A stretch of 64,000 nt of DNA. It comes from Balneola sp. GTDB taxonomy: Bacteria > Bacteroidota > Rhodothermia > Balneolales > Balneolaceae. How positions within the stretch are numbered: position 1 is the stretch's first letter; each line of letters begins with the position of its first letter. The notes under the pieces are model-generated. The model ran no database searches. It saw only the letters and a list, made by a program, of their open reading frames with translations, and had not been told where the DNA came from. This document shows positions 30,224 to 33,450 of the stretch, piece after piece. A program made the position numbers and the translations under genes. The stretch covers positions 1 to 64,000 of the forward strand of contig JANQSE010000007.1 in NCBI GenBank assembly GCA_028284195.1. Reading direction: 5' to 3'.

Positions 30224-31135
30224 ATGAAAAAAGGGATACAGGTACTACTTACACTTTTAATTATTTCTGCTATCAGTATTGATGCAGATGCACAATTACT
30301 AAAGCGGTTAAAGAACAAAGCGAAAGATCGGATTAAAGAAAAAATCGATCGCAAAATTGATAAAAAGCTGGAAGAAACCGCCAACAAAATGGTGGATAAA
30401 ACCTGGGTTTCTGTTTTTGGTGAAGAACCCGAATCTAACGCTAAAGGCTCATCTCCCCGCACCTTGCCATTCACACTAAACTCTAATGTAAAAACAGAAA
30501 GTGAATACTCATTCAACCGTTATTCTGAGATGGAGATCATATCTACCGGTGAAAACGGAGAAGAACCAGGGCCAACAATTATGAAGATGTACTTCAACAG
30601 TGATGGTGAGTATTCCGGTACATCATTTGAAAATGAGGAATCTCAGGAAAAGCAGGAAGAAGTGTTTTTGGTGTACGATTACAAGAACGAGGCTATGGTA
30701 ATGTTGATGAACAGCGAAGATGGGAAAGCATCTTTTGCATACGATTGGGCACAATCTGATATGAGTGCTTATGAAACCGAAGGTGAGGATAATGACCATG
30801 ATGGCTATTCAGGCTATGAGGAAATTGGTACAAAAACCATTCTTGGCTATGAGTGCAAGGGCTATAAAAGCGAAGATGATTATTCTTCCACAGAGTTTTG
30901 GATAACCAAAGAAACAGACTCAAGTTATCAAAAGATGATGAATGCAAATGCAAGTACGAAGTATTTTCAGGGAAGAACTATGATGCTGAATTCAACAGCT
31001 ACCGTAATGGAAATGGTTTCTGTAAACAAAGAAACCAATGAAAAAATAGTCATGAAAATGATGAAGCTTGATGAGAAGGCCAGATTACATTTCTCAATGA
31101 ATGATTACCCAACCATTGGATCTGGCAAAAAGTAA
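30224..31135 (+). CDS. DUF4412 domain exported protein
   Basis: A protein of 303 residues with a signal peptide (MKKGIQVLLTLLIISAISIDADAQ). Next is a strongly basic/charged helix (LKRLKNKAKDRIKEKIDRKI), then a DUF4412-type beta-rich domain (GEEPGPTIMKMYFNSDGEYSG, GTKTILGYECKGYKSEDDY, TEFWITKE). Such proteins are probably periplasmic; no function is known. The last ~25 codons, the stop and the following ~45 bp are duplicated at 33327-33450 just before tsaD. See the island entry. Confidence 0.75.
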   Translation: MKKGIQVLLTLLIISAISIDADAQLLKRLKNKAKDRIKEKIDRKIDKKLEETANKMVDKTWVSVFGEEPESNAKGSSPRTLPFTLNSNVKTESEYSFNRYSEMEIISTGENGEEPGPTIMKMYFNSDGEYSGTSFENEESQEKQEEVFLVYDYKNEAMVMLMNSEDGKASFAYDWAQSDMSAYETEGEDNDHDGYSGYEEIGTKTILGYECKGYKSEDDYSSTEFWITKETDSSYQKMMNANASTKYFQGRTMMLNSTATVMEMVSVNKETNEKIVMKMMKLDEKARLHFSMNDYPTIGSGKK

Positions 31136-31184
31136 AAATCATTGATCAGGAATATCGCCGTCAATTTCTTTATTTTTGGAATTG
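31059..31184 (+). repeat. Left copy of ~115-bp direct repeat flanking the island
   Basis: This copy covers the last ~25 codons of the DUF4412 gene plus about 45 bp of downstream sequence. Core blocks such as TTCTCAATGAATGATTACCC and TATCGCCGTCAATTTCTTTA are identical in the right copy at 33327-33450. Over ~115 bp I count a few substitutions and two single-base indels. In this copy the sequence that becomes the tsaD start (GGAATG) reads GGAATTG. Confidence 0.9.
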
Positions 31185-31501: not shown

Positions 31502-31822
31502 ATGAAAATACTGGCAATAAGTTTTTTTGTGCTGCTAAGTTTATTTGGATTTGATAACAAAACCAAAATTGAGGGTGATGTTCCTCCAATTGTTATGGCA
31601 GTAGATCAAGGAAATACAATTTTTAGCACAAATACTCCATCTATTGCAGGTGGAAGTTGTGAAACGGGCGGTTTGCCCAATGCATGCTGCTCTTATTGGA
31701 GCGTAGAAACTGAAACAGAGACCTTTTATCTATTTCATGTAATTCCTATACAATTTGTTGAAATTTCATGTTCCACAGGCGGTGATTTAAAATGCCCTTT
31801 GTGTGCAGAGGGGGGAGGTTGA
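31502..31822 (+). CDS. Cys-rich exported small protein 1
   Basis: A protein of 106 residues. The signal peptide (MKILAISFFVLLSLFGF) precedes a mature part with six Cys (residues 53, 62, 63, 90, 98, 101). The C-terminal block ISCSTGGDLKCPLC closely matches ICNSGGEFICP in the next gene, so the two are paralogues. A longer start at 31439 is rejected because this ATG gives a clean signal peptide. Small Cys-bearing exported peptides beside six-bladed propeller proteins recall the NVEALA peptides of Bacteroides, but the NVEALA motif itself is absent. Function unknown. Confidence 0.65.
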   Translation: MKILAISFFVLLSLFGFDNKTKIEGDVPPIVMAVDQGNTIFSTNTPSIAGGSCETGGLPNACCSYWSVETETETFYLFHVIPIQFVEISCSTGGDLKCPLCAEGGG

Positions 31823-31823
31823 G

Positions 31824-32120
31824 ATGATTAAATTAATGCTTTATGTAATTGTTTTAACTTTTTTTTCTATTGAGATAAATCCTAATCAAGATTTAGTTAA
31901 TACTTCAAATCCATCATTGGAGGAAGTTGAAATTCCTGTAATTTTTGAAAGTAACAACCAAATGGGGTGTTTGCCGGTTTGGAATGTAACTATCAAAAGA
32001 GAAATTGATTCAGATGGATGGTTGCTTGAATTTCTTGGTATCCCAGTAGAAGAGACAATAATAATATGTAACTCGGGAGGGGAATTTATTTGTCCAACCG
32101 AATCAGGATGTCCAAGATAG
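31824..32120 (+). CDS. Cys-rich exported small protein 2
   Basis: A protein of 98 residues: a hydrophobic N-terminus (MIKLMLYVIVLTFFSIEI), then a mature region with four Cys (residues 49, 82, 90, 96). The C-terminal C-N-S-G-G-E-x2-C-P block aligns with C-S-T-G-G-D-x2-C-P of the preceding protein. The ATG at 31824 is 1 base after the previous stop, behind a strong GGGGAGG ribosome binding site lying inside the upstream gene. The pair is therefore cotranscribed. It has no Cys-Cys doublet, unlike its neighbour. Confidence 0.65.
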   Translation: MIKLMLYVIVLTFFSIEINPNQDLVNTSNPSLEEVEIPVIFESNNQMGCLPVWNVTIKREIDSDGWLLEFLGIPVEETIIICNSGGEFICPTESGCPR

Positions 32121-32157
32121 AATACTATTTTCTAAACTATTGTAACCATTTTATTAA

Positions 32158-33297
32158 ATGAATTATTTGTGTATCAGCCGTTCTAAAAGCAGGCTAATGA
32201 GGGTATTTTTGTTCATTTTTTTTCTTTTGAGTACTCATAAATTAAGTGCACAAGCCCTTCTAAATAAAAACAAAAGCGACAATTCGAAATTGGAATTGTC
32301 GCTTTTCGATTCTTATAGTTTGAGTGAGGAGAAGTTTCTTGTTCCAAATATCAGTTTTGTAGAGTTTGATACTAGAGAAAAGTTGATTGTTTATGGAAGA
32401 GGTGGAACCGGAATTATCGCATATTCTAAGAGAGGAACCGCTCAAACTAAAATAGGAAATATAGGTCGTGGCCCTTTTGAATATACTGATGTAGGAGCGA
32501 TGAATTTAATTGGAGAAACCATTTTTGTTTGGGATTCTGACCAGCTTAAGTTGGTTAAATATAGTACTAAGGGTAAAAAAATTCTTGAACTAAATAGGTT
32601 TAAATGGGCAGTTAAAGACTTCTCAGTAATAGGTAATGATATTTATTTTTATAATAGCGGTAATATTCGTGACTTGAACTATATAGAACGCTACGATATA
32701 GGTAATAATAAGTATAAAGAGAAATATGGAGAAAGATCTCAGGAAGATATTTTTTTAGGAATGGAACAAGAATCGGGTGGGTTGGTTTCAGAAAACGAAT
32801 TTGTTTATTACATCGGGCCCGGTGAGTTATCTATAACAAGGTTGAACCGAAAATCACAAGAAGAGGAAATTTTTAAAATAGAAGATAAAGAATTTAAAGT
32901 TCCAGAGATTAAAGATGCACGAGCAATAGTAGGGAAAGGTGTTAATGAGATTAATAAGACGTTAATGCGTTCAAGCTATGTAAGAAATCTCTTTCTCCTA
33001 GAAAATTATGTAATAATTATGGGGCAAATAGGAGAAGCAAAGTATAATAGTAAGTATAAGGTATATACAGCTGAGGAAAAAAAAATACGATTTTATATTC
33101 TGGATAAAACCTCTATGTCTTTATTAGATACTTTTACATTTTCAAATGCATCAAATCGAAAAATACAAGACTTTTTATGGACTGCAACCAAACGAGAACT
33201 GGTTTTAATTTCGCCTTATGACTTTGAAAGTGATTCTTCTTTGCCCCCAGGAGATTCAGCTTACAAAGTTCATTTTTTCCAAATAATAAAAAAGTAG
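32158..33297 (+). CDS. Six-bladed beta-propeller exported protein
   Basis: A protein of 379 residues from the first ATG, or 366 from the ATG at 32197, which gives a cleaner signal peptide (MRVFLFIFFLLSTHKLSAQ). The body has propeller repeats. GNIGRGPFEYTDVGAMNLIG matches the GxGPGEY hallmark of the Bacteroidota 6-bladed beta-propeller family (BF2992/PF17170-like). VWDSDQLKLVKYSTKGK matches the paired D-x3-KV strand. It begins 37 bp after the second Cys-rich protein and closes the island cargo. In Bacteroides such genes sit beside NVEALA peptides. Confidence 0.72.
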   Translation: MNYLCISRSKSRLMRVFLFIFFLLSTHKLSAQALLNKNKSDNSKLELSLFDSYSLSEEKFLVPNISFVEFDTREKLIVYGRGGTGIIAYSKRGTAQTKIGNIGRGPFEYTDVGAMNLIGETIFVWDSDQLKLVKYSTKGKKILELNRFKWAVKDFSVIGNDIYFYNSGNIRDLNYIERYDIGNNKYKEKYGERSQEDIFLGMEQESGGLVSENEFVYYIGPGELSITRLNRKSQEEEIFKIEDKEFKVPEIKDARAIVGKGVNEINKTLMRSSYVRNLFLLENYVIIMGQIGEAKYNSKYKVYTAEEKKIRFYILDKTSMSLLDTFTFSNASNRKIQDFLWTATKRELVLISPYDFESDSSLPPGDSAYKVHFFQIIKK

Positions 33298-33326
33298 TTA
33301 TATACACTAAAATAATAGCGTTAAGC

Positions 33327-33450
33327 TGATAAAACTTGATGAGAAGACCAGATTACATTTCTCAATGAATGATTACCCAACCATTGGATCTGGCAAAAAG
33401 TAAAATCATTGATCGGGATATCGCCGTCAATTTCTTTATTTTAAGGAATG
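33327..33450 (+). pseudogene. Right copy of direct repeat: remnant 3' end of a DUF4412 gene
   Basis: This segment still encodes LIKLDEKTRLHFSMNDYPTI and the terminal GSGKK stop in frame, nearly identical to the C-terminus of the intact DUF4412 protein (one Ala to Thr change). It then runs into the tsaD start codon. There is no upstream coding part, so it is a fragment. It marks the right edge of the island and preserves the ancestral DUF4412-tsaD spacing. Confidence 0.88.

Follow-up and report, generated by a model that had tools for sequence, protein, structure and literature searches.

Among the small exported peptides described in Bacteroidota, two types are close enough to the locus reported here to warrant comparison. 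NVEALA proteins (PF14055) of Bacteroidales are small, Cys-rich, exported peptides encoded directly before propeller-like lipoproteins. GG-leader peptides of Bacteroidota (TIGR04149/NF047798 type) include Cys-rich forms that precede some PF17170 propellers in the family to which our organism belongs. On the propeller side, the closest counterparts are PF17170/DUF5128 proteins, by family match, and two solved structures, 3s9j (DUF4221, BVU_1028) and 4raa (BF0058), by fold. Our literature search found no function for the solved proteins, and open-literature searches on NVEALA, DUF5128, DUF4221, and BF2992 found nothing.

We analyzed a 64,000-nucleotide stretch of a Balneola sp. contig (the window) in which two small peptide genes, pepA and pepB, stand directly upstream of a propeller gene. 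The pepA-pepB-propeller arrangement is a conserved and specific genetic unit, and from sequence comparison its three products most likely work as one.

Organization of the locus

The module and the repeats around it comprise the following features.

31041..31182, + strand: left-hand member of a pair of imperfect direct repeats (~142 bp); covers the DUF4412 3' end and the intergenic stretch that follows
31502..31822, + strand: pepA, ATG at 31502; 106-aa peptide precursor of exported type with a hydrophobic N-terminus, six Cys, acidic
31769..31804, + strand: shared core block of pepA, CSTGGDLKCPLC
31824..32120, + strand: pepB, ATG at 31824; 98-aa paralogue of pepA with four Cys
32067..32111, + strand: shared core block of pepB, CNSGGEFICPTESGC
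32158..33297, + strand: six-bladed beta-propeller gene (PF17170/DUF5128), likely start at 32197
33310..33449, + strand: right copy of the ~142-bp repeat, extending to the start of tsaD

The three genes share a strand and are tightly spaced, with gaps of 1 nt between pepA and pepB and 37 nt between pepB and the propeller gene. A purine-rich stretch, GGGGGGAGG, lies within pepA just 5' of the pepB ATG, which begins 1 nt past the pepA stop. Translational coupling of the two peptides is thus likely, as a preliminary description of the window had proposed. Within the propeller reading frame, an in-frame ATG at 32197 (residue 14) is preceded by AGCAGG; translation more likely starts at this codon, given that the signal-like sequence MRVFLFIFFLLSTHKLSAQ also begins at this point. 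Just past this signal sequence, the propeller coding sequence contains a 14-bp near-perfect inverted repeat (AAAAGCGACAATTC...GAATTGTCGCTTTT, 32272-32306).

Two paralogous Cys-rich peptides

Both peptides carry a C-terminal core of the form C-x2-G-G-x3-C-P-x(1-4)-C, which reads C-S-T-G-G-D-L-K-C-P-L-C in pepA and C-N-S-G-G-E-F-I-C-P-T-E-S-G-C in pepB. The preliminary description had reported this shared block, along with six and four Cys in the respective peptides, and the sequences bear out both. The local alignment score between pepA and pepB (58) was reached by none of 2000 shuffles, the best of which scored 54. Across eight homologues from five genomes, five columns of the block are invariant (four Cys and one Gly). 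These columns, together with profile recovery of the wider family in three more groups of family rank, indicate that the block did not arise by chance. Neither peptide matched a family in Pfam or NCBIfam, and no homologue was found among solved structures (best E 0.6). Structure prediction was poor (pLDDT 60, pTM 0.36), giving no usable fold.

Read from sequence, both peptides open with a hydrophobic stretch of the kind seen in Sec substrates; an AxA cleavage site is not clearly recognizable. Members of the class are mostly acidic, with a net charge after residue 18 of 0 to -18. Several have 5 or 7 Cys, an odd count that simple pairing within one molecule cannot fully accommodate.

Relationship to NVEALA and GG-leader peptides

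The preliminary description had drawn a parallel to NVEALA-propeller modules while remarking that the NVEALA motif was missing, and both observations hold. Among 247 genomes of the phylum, PF14055 matched only one (G301), where all six NVEALA loci have a propeller-like protein directly downstream. The window peptides occupy the same position relative to their propeller, and this layout is all that they have in common with NVEALA genes. PF14055 matched neither pepA nor pepB up to E 10, and none of the 92 genomes of the window's family contained a match over its cut-off. The NVEALA leader is absent from the window peptides by eye. A profile of the six G301 leaders placed pepB (E 0.48), a Cyclobacteriaceae homologue from contig L074 (E 7.6), and pepA (E 15) among decoys. 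The L074 peptide contains a stretch, NLALLEVLAQ, that resembles NVEALA by eye; shuffled L074 leaders score equally high. Despite this resemblance and the common layout, we reject the reading of the window peptides as divergent NVEALA proteins, which is very improbable given the family profile, the leader profile, and the shuffles.

Since the leaders do not match, the window peptides appear to form a parallel class, distinguished by their own core (C-x2-GG-x3-C) and, in several genomes, by two paralogous peptides. Their propellers also differ from those of NVEALA modules, belonging to a different clade and mostly bearing a signal-peptidase-I-type N-terminus rather than that of a lipoprotein. 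The window peptides likewise differ from GG-leader peptides: their hydrophobic, Sec-like N-termini contain no double-glycine leader, and the peptides match no NCBIfam family. Nor is there a C39-type transporter or maturase beside them, as the neighboring genes are DUF4412 (upstream) and tsaD (downstream).

Two further possibilities were discarded. No relatives of the propeller were found in plasmid, phage, or viral collections, and PADLOC returned no match to a known defense system.

Distribution of the peptide class

Searches with the propeller and pepB across the 92 family genomes recovered the whole triple in G058 and G062, and a single peptide with a propeller in G012 and G044. In G091 a closely related propeller (37% identity) stands without an adjacent peptide. 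A single peptide and propeller also occur on the Cyclobacteriaceae contig. In both G058 and G062, pepA and pepB each carry extra N-terminal Cys that are absent from both window peptides. Such paired gain or loss is what an inter-peptide disulfide predicts, and this one evolutionary contrast is compatible with a constitutive envelope complex, structural or adhesive, built from two peptides and a propeller and having no part in conflict or signaling. However, the patchy distribution of the peptide class (5 of 92 family genomes) and fast sequence change are unlike a structural part, and we judge this explanation improbable.

To search by peptide alone, we used a core profile of 11 sequences that held no propeller information, some of whose rows had originally been gathered via the propeller, and ran it over 244 genomes of the class. 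At E ≤ 1e-4 it identified 18 places, corresponding to 15 loci in 12 genomes. A propeller gene lay directly downstream of the peptide in all 14 loci with enough sequence; the fifteenth (G492:C225) stops at a contig edge and was left out of this count. Loci in the groups f5 (other than G144), f57, and f11 were first seen through this search. Five weaker matches were also returned. Four were chance matches with no propeller, while the fifth (G504, E 0.0019) has the peptide layout and a propeller. The two-peptide version, with its propeller, also occurs in another family (G482). Extending the search to 394 genomes sampled from the phylum added no convincing peptide member; nine weak matches (E 0.001-0.02) were dismissed as likely chance, lying antisense or in broken frames with no propeller. 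No confident peptide locus was found without a propeller gene, while propellers without a peptide, such as the G091 orphan, do occur. A profile search with the shared block, as suggested in the preliminary description, thus finds homologues that adjoin PF17170-type propellers almost without exception.

Two loci contain a damaged gene. In G012 (C2:218512-219264) the peptide gene is undamaged and the propeller frame is disrupted at an A7 run, which may reflect a sequencing slip, a pseudogene, or slippage. In G137 (C3:206053-206202) the peptide gene has an in-frame TGA with loss of a conserved Trp, and the downstream propeller is intact.

The propeller and its clade

The window propeller matched PF17170 at E 7.6e-11 (42.2 bits; cut-off 22.9) and contains GRGPFEY, an instance of the GRGPxEY hallmark named in the preliminary description. 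Its AlphaFold2 model is a confident propeller (pLDDT 80, pTM 0.82). The nearest solved folds were the Bacteroides exported propellers 3s9j (Z 23.3) and 4raa (Z 22.4), followed by six-bladed NHL domains (Z ~20), placing the window protein among six-bladed propellers. No solved chain, including 3s9j and 4raa, matched it in sequence. The N-terminus is of signal-peptidase-I type, ending in LSAQ, with no lipobox.

One alternative is a role in maturation, with the propeller acting in the periplasm as a chaperone or enzyme for the folding, trimming, or modification of the peptides, whose target would be elsewhere. Peptidyl-alpha-hydroxyglycine lyase (3fvz) was also among the structural matches (Z 18.3), and the strict peptides-then-propeller order, the tight spacing, and the mostly soluble periplasmic type of propeller in the clade would suit such a helper. 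Yet NHL and many other propellers match equally well or better, and propellers are retained at loci whose peptide is absent or damaged. We therefore consider a maturation role quite unlikely.

A quickly built tree of 105 propellers, with long branches, placed the 14 peptide-linked members without exception in a single 15-row group together with the orphan L071 (SH-aLRT 99). Peptide labels changed twice on this tree, compared to a shuffled mean of 13.3, and none of 500 shuffles gave as few changes. Because part of the set had been gathered by propeller similarity, the weight of this result is carried by the members found via the peptide only (f5, f57, and f11), which fall within the 15-row group. 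The CW and CSG peptide types behave alike, each grouping on a propeller branch of its own. Across several bacterial families, the peptide class of the window stays with a single propeller clade.

Such tracking would also result from plain co-inheritance. It is compatible, too, with a signal and sensor pair, in which the peptides would be secreted cues and the propeller an extracytoplasmic receptor reporting through another envelope protein; propellers without a peptide could then be listeners. Against this, the propeller has no membrane-spanning segment apart from its signal peptide, and no gene for a sensor kinase, anti-sigma factor, or transporter was conserved in the flanks read. We regard signaling as unlikely.

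Peptides upstream of other PF17170 propellers

The association was also counted in reverse, applying one mechanical rule (the ORF had to be small and Cys-rich, with an N-terminus of Sec-like or GG type) to the genes upstream of propellers and of other genes. In a sample from the window's family, 23 of 86 PF17170 propellers were preceded by such an ORF, compared to 2 of 88 control genes (p 2e-6, Fisher test). Of the 23 positives, L165 and L222 appear doubtful, and the rule misses others, L139 and L141. The upstream peptides are of many types, unrelated to one another. In other parts of the phylum, some relatives of the propeller clade likewise follow a Cys-rich peptide (e.g. L235, L238, L243, L248, and L257), and others do not. 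PF17170-type propellers are heavily duplicated, with up to 27 matches in one genome.

Conceivably, though on balance doubtfully, PF17170-class propellers of Bacteroidota and Balneolota make up a large unrecognized family whose members serve as cognate partners to small, Cys-rich, exported peptides, with each clade having its own peptide class (NVEALA, CW, CSG, GG-leader, and two-peptide). If true, peptide-propeller recognition would be a diversified system of which a single genome carries many variants. A rule that pairs every propeller clade with an exported peptide of its own would provide uncharacterized exported propellers with a first concrete, testable partner.

Several of these loci merit description in their own right. 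A separate class of peptides with the core C-W-x-[TN]-G-x(4-5)-C precedes high-scoring PF17170 propellers at L145, L146, L148, L170, and L172 (and L141), whose propellers occupy their own branch. Within the window's own genome, a Cys-rich exported-type peptide of a different type (MKKFNILLFVMAFF..., six Cys) lies directly upstream of another propeller (L009/L011, G000:C12:518k). Elsewhere in that genome (L007, G000:C17:62000-80000), three tandem PF17170 propellers follow ORFs that are AraC-like and C39/VKOR-like, as named by eye, and a short GG-leader-like ORF (MEFLNVLTRNEMRNIKAG...) lies between the tandem propellers.

A candidate role for the module

The N-termini, Cys content, and co-inheritance of these proteins lead us to infer export, disulfide formation, and binding. 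The peptides would leave the cytoplasm by Sec and form disulfides in the periplasm. There the propeller, predicted from its signal peptide to be a soluble periplasmic or secreted protein, probably binds them. As a specific cognate binder, it would hold, mask, or neutralize the peptide. The peptides themselves could then be intercellular effectors, acting in antagonism or kin recognition, with each producer carrying its own partner; we advance this conflict or recognition role tentatively. Taken as a whole, a system of exported, probably disulfide-bonded peptides with an intercellular effector role, and a propeller as their cognate partner, strikes us as plausible, if somewhat short of probable.

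The preliminary description had also raised a peptide-export system. Genes for exporters, transporters, proteases, maturases, sensor kinases, or anti-sigma factors were not conserved beside the modules in the flanks read, leaving that suggestion without its expected transporter or protease. The lack of transporter, maturase, or sensor genes, together with propellers that survive without a peptide, leads us to favor a cognate binder over a dedicated export system.

Some observations sit less easily with the cognate-binder and effector reading. The acidic peptides are unlike pore-forming bacteriocins of the cationic type, which counts against it, and no charge complementarity was seen between peptide and propeller. 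The G012 locus, with its intact peptide and broken propeller frame, is awkward for a toxin-immunity relationship unless the break is a sequencing slip. Regardless of role, two unnamed peptide genes gain a family, a core motif, and a candidate binding partner.

Flanking repeats and probable acquisition of the module

The module (32.8% G+C, compared to 40-41% in its flanks) sits between the two imperfect copies of the DUF4412 gene 3' end and the stretch behind it. The right copy, which is also found as a second DUF4412 fragment (82% identical), leads straight into tsaD. The corresponding site in the congeneric genome G007 lacks the module and has a small membrane-protein gene between DUF4412 and tsaD. 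No integrase or transposase gene was seen within the module. The site is most simply read as an insertion accompanied by partial duplication. The module is probably a self-contained, horizontally acquired operon, since transfer fits its patchy presence, its low G+C, and the repeats that flank it.
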